Positions 30,702-39,886 of a stretch of DNA of 64,000 nucleotides are shown here, one piece after another (position 1 is the stretch's first letter; every line of letters begins with the position of its first letter). Below the pieces are notes generated by a model. It was not told the origin of the DNA. It worked only from the letters and a program-made list of their open reading frames with translations, and did not search any database. Source of the stretch: Cytophagaceae bacterium (GTDB lineage: Bacteria > Bacteroidota > Bacteroidia > Cytophagales > Cytophagaceae); contig JALONH010000011.1 in assembly GCA_025455005.1 (NCBI GenBank), forward strand, positions 1 to 64,000, given 5' to 3'. Both the position numbers and the translations under genes were made by a program.

Positions 30702-31136
30702 TTAGATAGGATGGATACGACCTGTCGATTTTTGCTCCAAGAACGATTGAAGTATAAGTGTAGCACTGATTTTATCTACTGTGGCCTTTTCCCTCCTTGC
30801 TTTTTTATTGATCCCACTATCTATCATGGTTTGAAAAGCCATGGAAGAAGTAAACCGTTCATCCACGCCATAAATAGGGATTTCAGGAAAATGGATTTTC
30901 AATTGTTGAATAAATTTTTGAACTGCAGACATGTTGGATGAATCTTGATTAGCCAATGTTTTGGGCAAACCAACTACCATACTTTCTATTGTTTCTTTTT
31001 TGAGATAAGACTGAAGGTATTCGATTACACCGGATGATGGTAAGGTATCTAAAGCAGTAGCGATCAATTGTAAGTTATCTGTAACAGCAACACCTACTCT
31101 TTTTGATCCATAATCAAAGGCAACAATTCGAGCCAT
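30702..31136 (-). CDS. ruvX: YqgF/RuvX family Holliday-junction resolvase-like protein
   Basis: A 144-aa RNase H-fold protein implicated in 16S rRNA 5' end maturation and/or Holliday-junction resolution. Visible motifs are [17 protein letters not shown] at the N-terminus, [13 protein letters not shown] and [13 protein letters not shown] chose the ATG at 31136, which overlaps the upstream stop codon as TAATG; an earlier in-frame start would add residues inside the hemerythrin-like gene with no conserved content. Confidence 0.93.
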
Positions 31137-31876
31137 TAATTTAACGAGGAAGTTTGTTTTAATTTCTCCAACCATTCCTTTTCTAAGGCCAACGCTTTGG
31201 GAAATAAAATCTCGTTTTCAATTCGGGCGTGTAAGCTTAAATCTTTTTCTAATGAAGCAAGTTCTTGATGTACTACTTTTAGAACGGTAGACGACACCGC
31301 TGAGGTATAATTAGACGTAATGTCTTTAATACCGTCCATTACGTCATCGTCTGAACTATGATCTACTGCAAAGTTGCTGATGGATTTTTGATCTAATGTA
31401 CGCAATACTTTTTGAGCCGTAACGTCCCCGGATAACGCTTTATTCATTAACAAAATATAATGGAATAAGGTATCTTCTTCTTCATAGATATGATGAATAA
31501 ACTCTTCTACAAAGTATGGGAATATTAGTTTTAAGTCTTTTTCTTTACCGATTTCTTCCTCCGGTAAATCTTTCAATAAAGAGGCTATGTATGGTAAGCG
31601 TTGTTTGATATAGCTAAAATGGGCGTGCTTTAGGTATTCGATAATTAAATCTACCGAATACGAGCGAAGAACATCCGGTCCAATTACCGCTTCATGACGA
31701 ATGGACTCTAAATGTTTAACAAACGTTTCTTTTCGAATACCTTTAGATGCACATAATTCATCCAAAGTCGTTTCAGAATAATTATAAAATTTTATTCCAA
31801 AAAAATGTAACGCATGCGCGACTACATAATCTTGTTCAACTAATTCTTGAATTTTGGAGGAAGAAGGGATAGACAT
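31136..31876 (-). CDS. YtfE/RIC-like hemerythrin-domain protein
   Basis: A 246-aa protein related to di-iron iron-sulfur-cluster repair proteins. The N-terminal ScdA-type region (about 1-55) keeps [11 protein letters not shown], but the usual FCCGG stretch reads FYNYSE, so the conserved Cys pair is absent. The hemerythrin-like helical bundle (about 75-235) has candidate iron ligands in [38 protein letters not shown] and [12 protein letters not shown] role in nitrosative or oxidative damage to iron-sulfur clusters is known for the family; loss of the Cys pair suggests a variant. Its stop is coupled to ruvX. Confidence 0.82.
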
Positions 31877-31972: not shown

Positions 31973-34390
31973 TTACCATTTAAATTGTAGGGTAAAAAAG
32001 ACACTACGAGCATCGGAAGGTAAAATACCCGGACCAGGATAACCTTCAGCCCTTCTGGTGAAATAAGAAGCATTTAAAAGATTATTCACCCCGGTGATGG
32101 CTGTAAAATACTTATAAGTATATTCTATGGACCAGTCCCATACTGTATACGATGGTATTATACCCACCACTGCGTTGGGCACTACGGCTGTTGTATTCGT
32201 AGCATCGGAGAATTGTTGAGATAAATAATTCATTTGCAAAACCGTTCTCCATTGCTTATGCTTATACGTAAGCCCAGTTCTATAATTTAGTACCGGTACA
32301 TATTCTACTTTTTTTCCTTGAAAAGCTGTTTGTTCACTGGATATATACCGAGCATCTATTACAGCGATATTATTAAACCAAGAAAATCTAGATTTTGCTT
32401 CAGGATGTATGCATTTTAAAAAATCAATTTCTACAAACATCTCCACACCAAAATTCCTGGAATCTGACACATTCGTTCTATATCGGTATACTACATTTTG
32501 TGCATTGCGCTCTAATATAGTACCTATTCTATCTTTGTAAAACATATAAAAAACATTGGCATCAAAGTCTAGCCAATTTTTAAGTTTCCCTCTAATACCA
32601 ATATCAGAACTAAAACCTCGTTCATCTTTAAGATTCGGATTGATTTGTAGATTCGGATTGTTTACTCGCATATCATTGAAATTGATCGAACGATAATTTT
32701 GAGAGATATTGGCATATACATTTATATTATCAGATAATTTATACGATGTTCCAATTCCAAATAAAACAAATGATCGTCGATTTATTCGATTATCATTAAT
32801 ACGCTCGTACAAAATAATATTACCGGCTAAATCTTTTTGAATATTGGTATAATATCCTTCGGATGCGGTACTAATATATTCCCAACGAACTCCTGGAGTA
32901 ACACTCCATCTGTCTGTTAAATAAAATATGTTTTCTGAAAAAAGAGCAATATTATAACTTGGAAAACGATAGTCAGAACCTTCTAAACTATCCGGATTGA
33001 TATAATAAAAATCAGGTCCGTAGCCATCATTACCTTCTCCTTGTTTACGAAGTGAGGTTCCATGGTAGTAGCGATTACCTATTAAAAAAGTAGCATTTTT
33101 ATTTTTGATTTTGTAATGGTGTAACAATCGTGTTTCAACACCATAATTACGGTATTTATCCGAAAGATAATCTCTATTCAACAATGGATCAGCTCGATCG
33201 ATATTTCCTAAAAATCCTAGTGCATCTCTTCCGGCTATTAATCCAAATACCCGTATGTTCAACAAGGTGTTAGAATTAAATTTATAGTCCATTAAAAACG
33301 CTATTAAATTCCAATTCACTTTAAACCAATTACGTTCCCGATTTGACTGTTGAGGATTGGTTAAAAATTGTCTATCCGTTAAACCTCCGGGTTGTTGTGC
33401 CAAATAATATTGAAAGGTGTATTCTATAGTTGTACTTAAGTGTTTATTCCATTGGTATTTTAAAGAGGCATGCGCAGAAGCCAAATCAAAATGAGCATTA
33501 GGACGCCAACCGTCCGAACGCTTGTATTGAATATAGGTGTAATACGATAATTTTCCCGTTGTTCCGGATAAACTATTAAAGCTATTCATCAATCCAAACG
33601 AACCAACCGTCTGCTTGGATAAAATATGTATCTTTTTATCTATTGGAGGTGTTTTAAATTTAAAATTGATAAAACCTCCAAATTGAGTCCCATATTGTAA
33701 TGATGCTGCTCCCCGAACTATTTCAATACGTTCCAATGCATCAATAGGAGGTGTGTAGTAACTTTCAGGATATCCCAAAGCATCCGCTGATATATCATAT
33801 CCATTTTGACGTGTATTAAAATTCGATACTCGATTCGGATTCAAACCTCTCCCCCCTATACCCAATTGTAAACCCCCTCCATCGCTTTCAAAAATATTCA
33901 ATCCCACTATTTTACCATATACTTGCCTTGGATTATTCGTTGCAGTGTTCCCCGTAATTTCATCTATCTTAATCACCTCATTTTTTTTACCGGCGTAAAT
34001 ATTTGCTCCTTCCACATCTTGCAACCGATCATTTCCTAAGTTGTTTTTAGTAGATTCAATTACTACAGTGGAATAATCATAGGAAAGCGTATCCACTTTT
34101 ACATGTAAATACATATTTTTATTAATGAGGAGGGTATCTATAAAAATCAAGTTATCTGTTGTTGTTATCACTAGAATATAAGTCGCGGGTACTACTTGTT
34201 GAATTTTAAAAACACCTTGAGTATTTGTAGTAGTAAAATAACCGGTTGATTTTAATATGACGGTTGCATTATCAGCCAATGAAGAATCCGGTCGTACTAC
34301 TTTTCCGGACAAAGTAAAGGTTTGTGCATTTGACTTTAAAATAAACAAAGCACTAAAGAACAGAAAACGTATACTGTATTTCAACAACAT
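31973..34390 (-). CDS. TonB-dependent outer-membrane receptor (siderophore/ferric-citrate type)
   Basis: An 805-aa outer-membrane receptor that would import iron complexes with TonB energy. A signal peptide ending near ILKSNAQ is followed by a carboxypeptidase-like N-terminal beta domain (about 25-100), a plug domain (QVYGKIVGLNIFESDGGG, EIVRGAASLQYGTQFGG) and a 22-strand barrel ending in an aromatic residue (VFFTLQFKW). The sequence resembles FecA-like receptors rather than SusC. The ATG at 34390 directly follows the HTTM stop codon; the longer frame upstream overlaps that gene. It is the last gene of the four-gene iron operon. Confidence 0.92.
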   Translation of the reverse strand: MLLKYSIRFLFFSALFILKSNAQTFTLSGKVVRPDSSLADNATVILKSTGYFTTTNTQGVFKIQQVVPATYILVITTTDNLIFIDTLLINKNMYLHVKVDTLSYDYSTVVIESTKNNLGNDRLQDVEGANIYAGKKNEVIKIDEITGNTATNNPRQVYGKIVGLNIFESDGGGLQLGIGGRGLNPNRVSNFNTRQNGYDISADALGYPESYYTPPIDALERIEIVRGAASLQYGTQFGGFINFKFKTPPIDKKIHILSKQTVGSFGLMNSFNSLSGTTGKLSYYTYIQYKRSDGWRPNAHFDLASAHASLKYQWNKHLSTTIEYTFQYYLAQQPGGLTDRQFLTNPQQSNRERNWFKVNWNLIAFLMDYKFNSNTLLNIRVFGLIAGRDALGFLGNIDRADPLLNRDYLSDKYRNYGVETRLLHHYKIKNKNATFLIGNRYYHGTSLRKQGEGNDGYGPDFYYINPDSLEGSDYRFPSYNIALFSENIFYLTDRWSVTPGVRWEYISTASEGYYTNIQKDLAGNIILYERINDNRINRRSFVLFGIGTSYKLSDNINVYANISQNYRSINFNDMRVNNPNLQINPNLKDERGFSSDIGIRGKLKNWLDFDANVFYMFYKDRIGTILERNAQNVVYRYRTNVSDSRNFGVEMFVEIDFLKCIHPEAKSRFSWFNNIAVIDARYISSEQTAFQGKKVEYVPVLNYRTGLTYKHKQWRTVLQMNYLSQQFSDATNTTAVVPNAVVGIIPSYTVWDWSIEYTYKYFTAITGVNNLLNASYFTRRAEGYPGPGILPSDARSVFFTLQFKW

Positions 34391-34391
34391 C

Positions 34392-35759
34392 TTAATAAGG
34401 AATAATCCACGATTTATGTGCCCAACTATCGTGAATGGTAGATAAATCAATCGATGGATCGATGAACGGTTTACTGCGTTGGCCATTTAAAGCAACACGT
34501 GCATCAACATATATTTCAGGATCGGGTACACCGAGTTGTTTGTAGTATCGATCAAGATAATGGGCAAATTGAAGTATTAAGTCCGGCTGAGTACTCATCA
34601 TTTTTTCTTGTAATGGGGTTAAATGTTCTCCTACTATAACCTCTGTCTTTTGTCCTGTTTCCGGATTTCTCACAAAGAAAAAACAAACACCTGCTTTTTC
34701 CATTAACATAACCCGCCAAGAAAATCGATAACCTTGTTCTGTCCAAAATAATTTACCGGGATAACAGATATACCGAAACGGAAATAACAGTTGAAATACA
34801 ATATACAATCCTAAAAGAACCGAAAGAAAAGTATACCATTGTTTAGGAGGACGCCCCCATTTCTTTATGGATATCGCTTCCTGCTTAGAACCGGTCATAC
34901 GTTGTAGAAAGTGCAGTAATCGTTCATGAAACGACACTGAAAAAAATAATAAAGTAGATGCAATCATGATAAAGGGAAACATTCCGATTGGAAATAGAAT
35001 TCGTGTAAGTACATGAAATAGAATGACCGCTGCATAAGCCGATAATCGATACCGACTACTCCATAATAAAAAAGGTATACATAAATCGTATAAGGCACCC
35101 GCCCAACTAAAGGCATATGCAACCCACAAATCATCTAAAAAAGAACCAATTAGCGGCATGTCGTTTCGAGCTGTTAACCATAAGCGAAGTGGCATAGCAT
35201 CCCATAGCCAATCTGAATTCAACTTTGCCAATCCAGCATAAAAATAAACGATAGCCAGTTGTAGTTGTAATATACCAATCATCCAAAATGGAATATGCGT
35301 AATGGTTTTATGAGGAGAGAAATAAGTATCCAATGAGAATCGATTTCCTGCCGGTAGAAATATCATTAAAAAGGATATCAAACTGCAAAAATAATAATGA
35401 TTCAAATAGGTAGTCACATCTATTAATTCTGTATACGTAAAACAAAGGAACGCAATCGTTGCACTCCATTTATACTTCCAACCCAACGCCACACTTATGT
35501 AGGCAAACAGCATAACAAAATAGATGAGAACAATATACGTTTCTGATAGACGCGGAAGCCAATGAAAACCATAGTAAGAAAAGAAAAAAACGGGTTTACC
35601 ATATAATTCATGTACCCATCCATTCCACAGAAATCGAGCAGCACTCCAAGCCATCAACGCTCCAAAAATAAGTCTAAAAACAATCAACGGAGCGATTGAA
35701 ACACTCCGTTGACTATACTTTAGTAATGAATTGACATATGACACATTAGTCCCCATCAT
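34392..35759 (-). CDS. HTTM-domain multi-spanning membrane protein
   Basis: A 455-aa inner-membrane protein with about eight to ten helices in its first 300 residues and a soluble C-terminal part (about 320-455). The segments FSYYGFHWLPRL, VYFYAGLAKLNSDWL and SWAGALYDLCIPFLL are typical of the HTTM (horizontally transferred transmembrane) domain. This domain is related to vitamin-K-dependent gamma-glutamyl carboxylase, whose substrate here is unknown. It overlaps the imelysin gene by 14 bases and the receptor start follows one base after its stop, so expression is tightly linked. A role in modifying or handling an imported iron ligand is a guess. Confidence 0.85.
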   Translation of the reverse strand: MMGTNVSYVNSLLKYSQRSVSIAPLIVFRLIFGALMAWSAARFLWNGWVHELYGKPVFFFSYYGFHWLPRLSETYIVLIYFVMLFAYISVALGWKYKWSATIAFLCFTYTELIDVTTYLNHYYFCSLISFLMIFLPAGNRFSLDTYFSPHKTITHIPFWMIGILQLQLAIVYFYAGLAKLNSDWLWDAMPLRLWLTARNDMPLIGSFLDDLWVAYAFSWAGALYDLCIPFLLWSSRYRLSAYAAVILFHVLTRILFPIGMFPFIMIASTLLFFSVSFHERLLHFLQRMTGSKQEAISIKKWGRPPKQWYTFLSVLLGLYIVFQLLFPFRYICYPGKLFWTEQGYRFSWRVMLMEKAGVCFFFVRNPETGQKTEVIVGEHLTPLQEKMMSTQPDLILQFAHYLDRYYKQLGVPDPEIYVDARVALNGQRSKPFIDPSIDLSTIHDSWAHKSWIIPY

Positions 35760-36861
35760 TATCGGTGTAGGAAATCATCACTCCTACAGCAGAGGTCATA
35801 TCGACTTTCATAAGAGCTATCAAAGCTACTAACTCTGCATGAAATTCTCTAATTTTTGCTCTATGATTAACATCACTTAAAGACTGTGAAAATGTCTCCG
35901 GAATTTCAGATAATTTATTTTCAACAACAACAAATTGTCCTTTGATAGATGCGTCTAAATTAGACTGCCCAATGGCTTGCAAATAATCATCTAGTCCGGG
36001 TCCATTGACTCCTTGTGTGGATACTCCTAAATATGTATTTTTTATAGCCAAAAGAGATGCTCGCATTTGAGTAAGGGAGGAGTCTGAATAATAGGCCTCC
36101 GCTTTACTAGGATTTACTACAGATGGATCACCCAACACATTGGCAATAATATTAACCGGAACCCCCACTTTAAAGTTTTTAACAATTTCTAAGTTACGAA
36201 CCATTCGATTAATAACATTAGAAGTAGAAGATCCGACATCTACACCTAGATTAGAAGTAAACGTATTACGATACGTTCCATTCCATTCTGCTAAAGTAGC
36301 TGCTACTTTAGTATTAATATGTTCGATTACATCGACTAAAAATGTTCTTCGTTTATCATCATCGAATAACGTTATGATTTCAGCGTCCGTAAGGGATTTA
36401 CTATAAAGTAAATAGTCTAAAGCAGGAAATCCGCTGAATGTGGACCCTAAGCTGGAATTGAAATCATATCCTCCTGCTGTAATGTTCGCTTCAATCCGAG
36501 TTCCATCCGTAGGAAAGGTATTAACCCCTAAACCTTCCGGAATCAACTGGACAGTCAACGCAGGACCAAAATCATACAACGAAACATATTGCCACTGTGT
36601 GTATGTTTGTTGAAACGCTGCTCTTAAGAGTTGTAAAGTAGATGTAGTTCGACTTGCGTTGAAATTTACCGCTGCTTGTTGTAAGTTCGATACAGACGTT
36701 TGTAAGTTTTGGTATCCCGGACGTATCAAGTTCTCGGAATAATTAACTAACATAGGTCCACGATCAGCTGAAGGGAGCTCTTCTATTCCTTTACCTGGAG
36801 TACAAGACATAAACCAGGTAAAGAGTAGAGAGAAGAATACGATGTTGTTTAACTTTTTCAT
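35746..36861 (-). CDS. Imelysin-family periplasmic lipoprotein
   Basis: A 371-aa predicted lipoprotein (TWFMSCTPG lipobox) of the imelysin-peptidase (M75) family. It has two helical repeats typical of EfeO/IrpA-type iron-regulated proteins. The classic GxHxxE metal motif appears here as GFPALDYLLYS, lacking the His, as in other non-catalytic IrpA-like members. A peptidase role is therefore unlikely, and iron or ligand binding at the membrane is more plausible. The operon order DUF4856, imelysin, HTTM, receptor supports iron uptake. The direct ligand is not known. Confidence 0.88.
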   Translation of the reverse strand: MKKLNNIVFFSLLFTWFMSCTPGKGIEELPSADRGPMLVNYSENLIRPGYQNLQTSVSNLQQAAVNFNASRTTSTLQLLRAAFQQTYTQWQYVSLYDFGPALTVQLIPEGLGVNTFPTDGTRIEANITAGGYDFNSSLGSTFSGFPALDYLLYSKSLTDAEIITLFDDDKRRTFLVDVIEHINTKVAATLAEWNGTYRNTFTSNLGVDVGSSTSNVINRMVRNLEIVKNFKVGVPVNIIANVLGDPSVVNPSKAEAYYSDSSLTQMRASLLAIKNTYLGVSTQGVNGPGLDDYLQAIGQSNLDASIKGQFVVVENKLSEIPETFSQSLSDVNHRAKIREFHAELVALIALMKVDMTSAVGVMISYTDNDGD

Positions 36862-36891
36862 CTATTTTATAACAATGTAAAGCCCACAAAG

Positions 36892-38076
36892 TTAAAAAGT
36901 AAATCCAAAGGTTGTGTTAATATTTGTTCGTAGTGTATTTAACTCGATTTGGGTTACTTCATAGAAATTATACCCCTGCGTTGCAAAGTTAGGATGATCA
37001 AACACTGACAACCAATTATTTAAAGTTGCATTAGAAACACGAGCAGGATATGCACTATATTGAAACCCCTTAATAAAGGCAATTAATTCGGATAAAGCAT
37101 GGTTACGTTTCGCTTGATCAGTAGTATTGGCATCATCAATATATTTTACCATTGTGGCCGCCCATACTTTTTCTAATTCTTGTTGTATGATTGCTTTTTG
37201 AATATCTAATAAGGCTTGGTCGTTATTATTTATAGCGACTCTTCCGGCTATAAAAGCATTGTATATCGTTCCAATGGCATTCGGTAATTTAGAATCATTT
37301 TTACGGTCAAAAGCATAAGCCCCGAAATAACGCATTCTAGATCTTATCTGTGGATTGGTTAATCCTGAATTTAACAATGAACTATATGTAGATGGTATGC
37401 CTACTAATTTAAATGCAAAGTCCCAATTTTTGATTTTATCTGCTTGACTCACACCGGAACCGGTAGAGGAGACATCCATTAGTTTATTCGTCAGTTGATA
37501 GTAAATCAACGAACCCATTTGCCCTTTATCGACTAATTGTTGGTATTCCATACCATATTTATTTATTACGTATTTAGATCCACTGGTAGCAGGAGGAACC
37601 GGAACCGTTTCTACTACACCTGCAGTTCCTATAGTTCCGGTAACCGGTGCGGCTCCGGTTGCAGATGGATTGGCAGATAATTTCAAACTGTCTATTGCTA
37701 TATTCAAAACATCTAAACCACTCAATGAGATACCCGGAACAGTAACATCTGTTGAGGTAGTAATTAAATCTTCCAGATCAAACGAGGCATTCGTTAATGC
37801 AACATTAGTAAATCCAGATCCTGTTAACATATTTTTCATGGAGACATCATCTAATGTTGTACCCACTGTTTTTACTGCATTCATCTTACCGTTAAGCTCA
37901 GATAACATTAAAAAAACAGTGTCACCTTTAGCAAATCCGGATGTGGTATCTGCAAAATTATAGGTAGAGGGAAACGAATACGAAGGAACGGGAGGTGGTC
38001 CTATTTCTCCTTCTTTACAAGAAATAGCAAGAGCTACTAGAGCCATGCATCCAACGATTTTAATTTTTGTGAACAT
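36892..38076 (-). CDS. DUF4856-domain lipoprotein
   Basis: A 394-aa predicted lipoprotein with the lipobox ALAISCKEG, first gene of the iron operon. DUF4856 proteins of Bacteroidota typically begin YSFPSTYNF, seen here, and are largely helical with no enzymatic motif. The region VDKGQMGSLIYYQLTNKLMD and the end GFQYSAYPA match my memory of the family. It lies 30 bases upstream of the imelysin gene. The function is undescribed; a surface or periplasmic iron-ligand protein is an inference from neighbours. Confidence 0.82.
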   Translation of the reverse strand: MFTKIKIVGCMALVALAISCKEGEIGPPPVPSYSFPSTYNFADTTSGFAKGDTVFLMLSELNGKMNAVKTVGTTLDDVSMKNMLTGSGFTNVALTNASFDLEDLITTSTDVTVPGISLSGLDVLNIAIDSLKLSANPSATGAAPVTGTIGTAGVVETVPVPPATSGSKYVINKYGMEYQQLVDKGQMGSLIYYQLTNKLMDVSSTGSGVSQADKIKNWDFAFKLVGIPSTYSSLLNSGLTNPQIRSRMRYFGAYAFDRKNDSKLPNAIGTIYNAFIAGRVAINNNDQALLDIQKAIIQQELEKVWAATMVKYIDDANTTDQAKRNHALSELIAFIKGFQYSAYPARVSNATLNNWLSVFDHPNFATQGYNFYEVTQIELNTLRTNINTTFGFTF

Positions 38077-38156
38077 AATGCTTTACGTTTAGTTGTATAA
38101 GGTAATTTTGTATGTTTGTAGGTAATGGTTATGTTCTCCTTGAACTACCATTCTTA

Positions 38157-38173
38157 TTTAGACTAATTCTAAA
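38157..38173 (-). promoter_or_regulatory. Candidate Fur-like operator of the iron operon
   Basis: TTTAGA-CTAAT-TCTAAA is a 17-bp palindrome with seven of eight base pairs symmetric. It sits just downstream of the -7 box, where transcription should begin, ideal for a repressor. The operon content suggests Fur, but the motif has not been compared with a known set. Confidence 0.5.
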
Positions 38174-38179
38174 GTGATG

Positions 38180-38210
38180 CAAATCTATACTCTAAAATTG
38201 TATCTTGCAA
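38180..38210 (-). promoter_or_regulatory. Promoter of the DUF4856-imelysin-HTTM-receptor operon
   Basis: On the minus strand TTG (38208-38210), then 20 bases, then TAGATTTG (38180-38187) is a full match to the Bacteroidota TTG-N19/20-TAnnTTTG promoter. It gives a leader of roughly 95 bases before the ATG at 38076. Confidence 0.7.
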
Positions 38211-38263
38211 ATTATTTAGAAATATTTTAAATAAAAATAATACTCACTGTATATCAATCTTTT

Positions 38264-39886
38264 ATGAATAATACTGAATCAAAAAACTCTTCTTGGGGGA
38301 TCCGCCTTCCGCTTTTTCTTTCTATTACTTTAGTAATTGGAATCTTGGTTGGCTCATTGATGTCGGGAGATAAATCCCTTCAGGGCACATTGCCGTTACC
38401 GGAAAAACTAAGTGAGATACTTACATATATACAGCAAGATTATGTAGACACAGTGGATGTTAATGATCTGACAGATTTTACCATCACCAAATTGTTAGAA
38501 AAGTTGGATCCACATACGAGTTATGTTCCCATAAAAGATTTGGAGATGTCTCATGCTCAATTGGAAGGCGACTTTGAAGGTGTAGGGATAGAATTTAACA
38601 TCATCAAAGATACCATTTATGTTATTTCTCCAATCGCAGGAGGGCCCTCAGAAAAAGCGGGAATATTGGCCGGTGATAAAATTGTACGTATTCAAGATGA
38701 AAATGTGGGGGGTGTAGGATTTACATCATCGGATGTTTTTAAACGATTGCGGGGTAAAAAAGGCACTGAAGTAAAAATTGGGGTGGTACGGAATGGCAGC
38801 TCTGAAATCTTATACTATACTATAACAAGAGATAAAATACCTACCTACTCAGTAGAAGTGAGCTATATGATAGATGCTCAAACTGGATACATCAAAATAA
38901 GTCGATTTGCTGAAAATACAGCGGCCGAATTTAAAGATGCGGTTACTCAACTGAAGAATAAGGGGATGAAACAGCTCATGATTGATTTGAGAGATAACCC
39001 GGGGGGATATTTAAATCAAGCAACGGAAATCGCTGATGAAGTGCTATCCGGACAAAAGATGATTGTGTATACGGATGGTAAAAAAGACCAGTACGATCGT
39101 GAATACAAAGCCTTTTCAACCGGATTGTTCGAGGTAGGCGCCATTGTCATATTAATCAATGAAGGTAGTGCATCCGCATCTGAAATCGTTTCCGGAGCAG
39201 TTCAGGACCATGATCGGGGTATCATTGTAGGTAGGCGTTCATTTGGAAAAGGATTGGTTCAAGAAGTAAAACGATTAAAAGATGGTTCTGAACTTCGATT
39301 AACAATCTCCAGATATTATACCCCTTCTGGAAGATGTATACAAAAGCCCTATGAAAAGGATAAACCGGAAGCATATGAAGACGAAGTGATGGAACGGTAT
39401 AGCCACGGTGAATTATTTAATAAGGACAGTATAAAATTTAATGACACATTACAATATAAAACAGCAAAAGGAAGAATCGTATACGGAGGTGGTGGTATAA
39501 TGCCGGATATCTTTGTCCCAAGGGACACGAGCGATTATACCGAACTATTGAGTGGTCTATTTAATAAAAATATTATACGTGAATACACCTTGGACTATTA
39601 TCAAAAAAATAAAACACAATTAGAAAAATATTCTTTTAACGAGTATCAACAATCCTTCCAAGTGAGTTCCCCTATGTTTCAAGAATTATTAAGAAGAGCA
39701 ACTGCGGTTGGCATATACTATACCAATAAAGACGTAGAACGTTCACGACATAGTATTGAAACCTATGTTAAAGCTTATATTGCCAGAAGTATTTGGGGCA
39801 ATGCCGGATTTTACCCTATAGTCAATTTAAATGATGAAATTTACACGGAGGGCATAAAAGCGTTTTCTTCAAACGTATTGCGTTAA
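38264..39886 (+). CDS. CtpA-type S41 carboxy-terminal processing protease
   Basis: A 540-aa membrane-anchored or periplasmic serine protease. One N-terminal helix (about residues 12-30) is followed by a PDZ domain (about 90-180, with GVGIEFNIIKDTIYVISP) and the S41 catalytic domain. The nucleophile Ser lies in EGSASASEIVSGA and the catalytic Lys in RRSFGKGLVQE. A C-terminal helical extension follows. Family members trim or degrade envelope proteins. The gene is monocistronic and divergent from the iron operon, with 187 bases between them. Confidence 0.94.
   Translation: MNNTESKNSSWGIRLPLFLSITLVIGILVGSLMSGDKSLQGTLPLPEKLSEILTYIQQDYVDTVDVNDLTDFTITKLLEKLDPHTSYVPIKDLEMSHAQLEGDFEGVGIEFNIIKDTIYVISPIAGGPSEKAGILAGDKIVRIQDENVGGVGFTSSDVFKRLRGKKGTEVKIGVVRNGSSEILYYTITRDKIPTYSVEVSYMIDAQTGYIKISRFAENTAAEFKDAVTQLKNKGMKQLMIDLRDNPGGYLNQATEIADEVLSGQKMIVYTDGKKDQYDREYKAFSTGLFEVGAIVILINEGSASASEIVSGAVQDHDRGIIVGRRSFGKGLVQEVKRLKDGSELRLTISRYYTPSGRCIQKPYEKDKPEAYEDEVMERYSHGELFNKDSIKFNDTLQYKTAKGRIVYGGGGIMPDIFVPRDTSDYTELLSGLFNKNIIREYTLDYYQKNKTQLEKYSFNEYQQSFQVSSPMFQELLRRATAVGIYYTNKDVERSRHSIETYVKAYIARSIWGNAGFYPIVNLNDEIYTEGIKAFSSNVLR

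Follow-up and report, generated by a model that had tools for sequence, protein, structure and literature searches.

A predicted Fur-repressed iron-acquisition operon encoding a short vitamin K-dependent carboxylase homologue in a Cytophagaceae bacterium

The window is the 64,000-nt (64-kb) stretch at positions 1 to 64,000 of contig JALONH010000011.1 of a Cytophagaceae bacterium (assembly GCA_025455005.1). Four genes lie head to tail on its minus strand at 31973–38076, encoding in order of transcription a DUF4856 lipoprotein, an imelysin lipoprotein, an HTTM protein and a TonB-dependent receptor. The HTTM protein is, by sequence, a short vitamin K-dependent gamma-glutamyl carboxylase (VKGC), whose homology to human GGCX extends over almost the whole of its own length, lumenal domain included. 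The operon is predicted to be a Fur-repressed iron-acquisition operon, switched on by iron starvation. Within it the VKGC may carboxylate or otherwise modify an acidic residue in a partner that is exported, filling the slot of a di-haem oxidoreductase (DHOR); the probability of this reading is put at about 0.4.

Predicted regulation

Two predicted Fur boxes bracket a predicted promoter. The promoter was read by eye at 38180–38211 on the minus strand as TTTG (38211–38208), 20 nt and TAGATTTG (38187–38180), against the Bacteroidota promoter consensus. A sigma-70 scan, which does not cover promoters of the Bacteroidota type, gave no more matches in the region than in shuffles. Fur box 1, CTTTAGAATTAGTCTAAAT (38174–38156), is a palindrome 79 nt ahead of the DUF4856 ATG and lies over the expected transcription start. 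Fur box 2, ATTTAGAAATATTTTAAAT (38214–38232), lies just upstream of the -33 element. Each agrees at 17 of 19 positions with the Fur-site consensus of Riemerella anatipestifer, ATTTAGAATTATTCTAAAT (PMC5609570). The initial annotation had described a single palindrome at the expected transcription start; the palindrome is there, but it had not been recognised as a Fur box and the second box had been missed.

At three mismatches or fewer the two boxes are the only sites in the window (four strand matches, 0.16 expected). Four sites in the whole genome have two mismatches: both boxes of the window, one site before sufB and one near a gene for an MFS transporter. A further site, before a TonB-receptor gene, has three mismatches. 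The sites outside the window are at G000:C42:41438, C45:17016 and C19:36962 (sufB, MFS transporter and TonB-receptor gene). Two Fur-family proteins are encoded in the genome. A match of at least 14/19 lies within 250 nt upstream of the DUF4856 gene in 110 of 119 related operons, about 7 being expected from dinucleotide shuffles.

In R. anatipestifer, RAYM_09779 (TonB receptor), RAYM_09784 (vitamin K-dependent gamma-carboxylase), RAYM_09789 (imelysin lipoprotein) and RAYM_09794 (hypothetical protein) are grouped in a table of genes that Fur regulates when iron is restricted (PMC5609570). From its position, RAYM_09794 would be the DUF4856 protein. The two Fur boxes and the matching Fur- and iron-regulated genes of Riemerella bear out the earlier assignment of the operon to iron acquisition. 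The earlier remark that no function had been assigned by experiment holds for the system as such; its regulation has already been measured in this relative.

Conservation in the Bacteroidota

DUF4856 is found in 50 and the VKGC lumenal domain in 69 of 296 Bacteroidota genomes, both in 46 (Fisher p 9e-32, uncorrected for phylogeny). Loci were sampled around hits to DUF4856 or VKGC, with 80 added from a search of genome contigs with the alignment of the enzyme. Being limited to the best 80 of at least 570, that search is uninformative on other phyla. Because loci were picked for encoding DUF4856 or VKGC, counts among them are not natural frequencies.

The sample holds 147 VKGC places. DUF4856, imelysin, VKGC and receptor genes follow in this order in 120, imelysin, VKGC and receptor genes in nine, VKGC and receptor genes in one; the VKGC gene is alone in 17. 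The 129 operon loci include three fetched twice. Named records belong to Flavobacteriaceae, Cytophagales, Chitinophagales, Saprospiraceae, Balneolaceae, Rhodothermaceae and relatives, mostly aerobes. The four proteins have correlated pairwise identities (0.86 to 0.89), as expected for co-inheritance; species phylogeny alone is also expected to give a correlation. No relatives were detected on viral contigs searched with close-relative patterns. Among the papers searched, none names DUF4856 and none brings together any two of the terms DUF4856, imelysin and HTTM.

The neighbourhood survey proposed in the initial annotation thus finds the four genes kept together in relatives. Loss of this linkage and lack of iron-dependent expression had been named there as outcomes that would speak against the system; the evidence from relatives (synteny and the Riemerella Fur regulon) points largely the other way.

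The carboxylase homologue

The VKGC gene is at 34392–35759 on the minus strand. The product has an HTTM domain and a VKGC lumenal domain (PF05090, E 3.9e-72; PF22777, E 4.8e-53). Residues 11–454 align with residues 50–504 of human GGCX (E 3.4e-38), with 129 identities over 435 aligned positions. In GGCX, K218 serves as the base, the substrate Glu is bound by N159, H160 and Y395, and F286, F294, F299, W223 and A214 are among the residues of the quinone pocket and tunnel (PMC12589487). The window protein keeps an equivalent of every one of these, including K179 (for K218), N120 (N159), H121 (H160) and Y344 (Y395). Among 127 operon VKGCs the equivalents of K218, N159, H160, W223, F286, F299 and A214 are invariant; at the equivalent of Y395, 97 have Tyr and 30 have Phe. 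The relationship to the carboxylase noted in the initial annotation is correct and was understated: lumenal domain, catalytic lysine and Glu pocket are all conserved, and the alignment with GGCX shows the catalytic residues to be kept.

No homology is found past human residue 504 (human GGCX runs to 758); the arch is absent, as is part of the propeptide-binding domain. The C99–C450 disulfide of GGCX is not kept, its cysteines being replaced by F58 and Y401 in the window protein. The chemistry of the enzyme therefore looks intact, while its recognition of substrate would have to differ. Of the two roles suggested for the protein in the initial annotation, chemical modification of an iron ligand or help in its import, the conserved residues favour a chemical modification, of a protein or of a ligand.

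A ligand is the substrate in one alternative, which is on the whole unlikely: the operon would serve iron acquisition in the same way, and the VKGC would carboxylate or oxidise the imported ligand after its delivery by receptor and imelysin, releasing the iron. An incomplete propeptide-binding domain would suit a small substrate, the nearest solved relative of the receptor is the ferric dicitrate receptor FecA, with a small carboxylate as ligand, and no operon-specific protein site was found. Against a ligand stand the conservation of the Glu-binding N159, H160 and Y/F395 and the known chemistry of the family, which is on peptide Glu.

The base and the quinone pocket are the best conserved parts of the enzyme. 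This would also fit a menaquinol epoxidase that carries out redox work only (ferric reduction, or handling of quinone or oxygen in the periplasm) without carboxylation, in the same iron operon. The Leptospira relative reportedly epoxidises without carboxylating. Pairing with a redox enzyme would be in keeping with other imelysins, which accompany redox haem enzymes (PMC3143127; 17 of 18 loci here). An epoxidase of this kind is improbable in view of the Glu pocket, which is conserved as well and has Tyr or Phe where 13 of 14 other bacterial VKGCs in the sample have His.

The operon VKGCs form one clade (support 0.988), which includes one lone gene, L090 (6986–8356, G108:C1). It has Tyr at the position of Y395 and no imelysin, DUF4856 or receptor gene of these families alongside. 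L090 is the fourteenth of the other bacterial VKGCs sampled and the one without His at 395. A second VKGC group of Flavobacteriaceae has His there (L080 6134–7459, L083 6137–7447, L102 6134–7471). In L080, the locus scanned, the gene is between ribF and serS; L083 and L102 look alike, and no uptake genes are nearby.

VKGCs of these genomes that have no uptake genes around them, such as the one between ribF and serS, indicate that such enzymes can have unlinked substrates. By extension the operon VKGC might modify something encoded elsewhere and belong to the operon only through a shared need in low iron; L090, an operon-clade member with no operon partner alongside, would agree with this. Members of the operon clade almost always have imelysin and receptor genes of the same families as neighbours, and an unlinked substrate is accordingly a poor prospect.

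menA is present in the genome. VKOR was considered as the recycler of the epoxide and set aside: it is absent from this genome, and a comparison without statistics gives no evident link to VKGC across the phylum.

The imelysin and the place of the di-haem oxidoreductase

The imelysin gene is at 35746–36861 on the minus strand (PF09375, E 1.6e-44). Its product is a lipoprotein, taken to be a variant of the GxxxxE type, with matches by profile and fold to the IPPA, IrpA and ICMP structures (Foldseek to 3pf0, E 1e-7). The His of the GxHxxE motif is absent and Asp stands in place of Glu (GFPALD); Asp is found in 84% of operon members. Imelysins have been argued to be binders and not peptidases (Xu et al., PMC3143127). 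With the His missing, this superfamily argument upholds the earlier suggestion that binding is a more likely role of the protein than peptidase activity.

Imelysins almost always accompany a DUF1111 di-haem peroxidase (Xu et al., PMC3143127). A DHOR gene is present in 17 of 18 non-operon imelysin loci of the present sample, the eighteenth being a short contig. It is present in only 7 of 129 operon loci, each with an additional imelysin. The genome of the window encodes one imelysin and no DHOR. On this distribution the VKGC usually occupies the place held elsewhere by a haem enzyme. The di-haem relatives MauG and MbnH modify partner proteins. The parallel makes a partner-modifying role of the VKGC attractive, as an analogy and not as evidence.

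Two hybrid clusters (L117 309–10855, L107 4422–11531) carry imelysin, DHOR and imelysin genes on the same strand just upstream of VKGC and receptor genes; L117 also has DUF4856. An additional DHOR fragment is found at the contig end of L099.

The C-terminus DGD (35746–35766 in the window, low-confidence in the model) is shared by 126 of 129 operon imelysins. It was considered as the substrate site of the VKGC. The same ending occurs in DHOR-linked imelysins of the GLPAIEYLL type and in gammaproteobacterial IPPA (3pf0), and so marks the imelysin family and not the linkage to VKGC; the tail may nonetheless be a substrate.

The DUF4856 lipoprotein and the receptor

The DUF4856 gene is at 36892–38076 on the minus strand (PF16148, E 4.6e-19; lipobox Cys20). 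A role of its product in iron capture is likely. The AlphaFold2 (AF2) model (pLDDT 86) has no clear relative among solved structures, which does not by itself show a new fold. An imelysin fold was considered for DUF4856: the best Foldseek E against any structure was 0.36, with E 1.4 for the imelysin-like Algp7. In a second structural comparison the imelysin-type EfeM scored Z 4.6, among unrelated helical proteins, and a profile comparison of DUF4856 with imelysin spanned only 40 columns. The window protein lacks E215, H216 and E220 of the family and keeps H326 and E330. At least two acidic residues follow just past the lipid Cys in 74 of 101 family members with a recognisable lipobox. Acidic residues at this place are linked to surface export in Bacteroidota.

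The receptor gene is at 31973–34390 on the minus strand (PF00593, PF07715). Its product is FecA-like. The start is most likely ATG 34390, followed by the signal peptide MLLKYSIRFLFFSALFILKSNAQ; a start at 34486 is less likely, and the longer mechanical open reading frame from there overlaps the VKGC gene. No operon-specific site was indicated in DUF4856 or the receptor against non-operon samples of four each, few and distant. Outer-membrane vesicles of Tenacibaculum maritimum are rich in a FecA homologue and in imelysin-like lipoproteins (PMC10288586), which fits an outer-membrane location. A FecA homologue of Flavobacterium psychrophilum rises in low iron (PMC9331221) and may be the counterpart of the operon receptor.

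Gene layout and neighbours

The open reading frames are at the places given in the initial annotation, with junctions of +30, -14 and +1 bases in operon order. The upstream neighbour is a divergent S41 peptidase gene (38264–39886, plus strand). Directly adjoining downstream is a gene for a hemerythrin resembling the iron-sulfur-repair protein RIC/YtfE (31136–31876, minus strand).

Proposed function

In the proposed scheme the FecA-like receptor would carry a ferric complex across the outer membrane, and the two lipoproteins, imelysin and DUF4856 (the latter often with a surface-export-like start in relatives), would bind iron or the ferric ligand. The VKGC would be an inner-membrane enzyme whose active site faces the periplasm. 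With menaquinol, O2 and CO2 it would carboxylate, or otherwise modify at a carbanion, an acidic residue in a partner that is exported. The modification would create or tune an iron-binding site. The target would most probably be the imelysin or the receptor, the two constant neighbours of the enzyme, since DUF4856 is missing from nine three-gene sets (some at contig ends). As proposed, the VKGC would fill the slot that a DHOR holds beside other imelysins. The narrower claim that the product is gamma-carboxyglutamate (or beta-carboxyaspartate), placed in the partner for an iron site as a bacterial parallel to the Gla chemistry known from clotting factors, is doubtful.

Several observations weigh against modification of an exported partner. 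K217 (Ala), N158 (Leu), M401 (Val) and R436 of GGCX are replaced in the window protein, and the propeptide groove is incomplete. No VKOR for recycling of the epoxide is encoded in this genome. The imelysins show no conserved Glu specific to VKGC-linked members; the only differences are at Asp149, which is Glu in most imelysins of the DHOR type, and at Tyr87. VKGC and DHOR coexist in some loci (L107, L117), and simple replacement is therefore not the whole story.

Conserved gene order and Fur boxes tie one VKGC clade to three defined partners of a single pathway, which narrows the question of what the bacterial relatives of vitamin K carboxylase do to a few substrates that can be tested. The occurrence of another kind of oxidative enzyme next to imelysins hints that a common chemical need underlies the curious pairing of imelysin and haem enzyme. 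Iron capture may be a use of vitamin K chemistry in bacteria.

Comparison with known systems

The genes RAYM_09779–09794 of R. anatipestifer have consecutive tags, encode the same set (TonB receptor, VKGC, imelysin lipoprotein, hypothetical protein) and are Fur- and iron-regulated; they were published gene by gene and not as a system (PMC5609570).

Human GGCX is homologous over residues 50–504, and the window VKGC keeps its base, Glu pocket and most of its quinone pocket; the window protein differs in lacking the sequence after 504 and the C99–C450 disulfide and in the replacement of K217 and N158. FecA, the ferric dicitrate receptor, is the nearest solved structure to the window receptor by sequence (E 3.8e-17), whereas the window receptor scores 112.7 bits against an NCBIfam FecA cut-off of 1100 and has a carboxypeptidase-regulatory-like N-terminal domain.

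A DUF4856 gene also occurs, with no VKGC or imelysin gene, in a SusC–SusD–metallohydrolase (LP_HExxH)–DUF4302 locus (L056 220–11181). The locus resembles the iron capture system (ICS) known from Capnocytophaga and Riemerella and cited in PMC5429918. The ICS has SusC/SusD and a metallohydrolase lipoprotein and neither VKGC nor imelysin, whereas the window operon has a single non-SusC receptor and no SusD. The EfeU permease and the EfeB peroxidase, which accompany the imelysin-domain protein EfeO in EfeUOB, are not among the four genes or the adjacent open reading frames identified, to which the search for them was confined.

Parallels are also found in Pseudomonas aeruginosa PA4370–PA4373 and the Leptospira lruB cluster, in which Fur- or iron-regulated genes for imelysins stand beside an oxidative enzyme and an imelysin of the GxxxxE type occurs (PMC3143127, PMC13066512). 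The PA4370–4373 type has two imelysins and a di-haem peroxidase, and imelysins of the IPPA/PA4372 type associate with the DUF1111/DHOR di-haem enzyme. The window operon has no such association: it has a VKGC in the usual di-haem place, and DUF4856 upstream. It would be a variant of the imelysin-type iron operons and gives the function of a bacterial VKGC a concrete setting.

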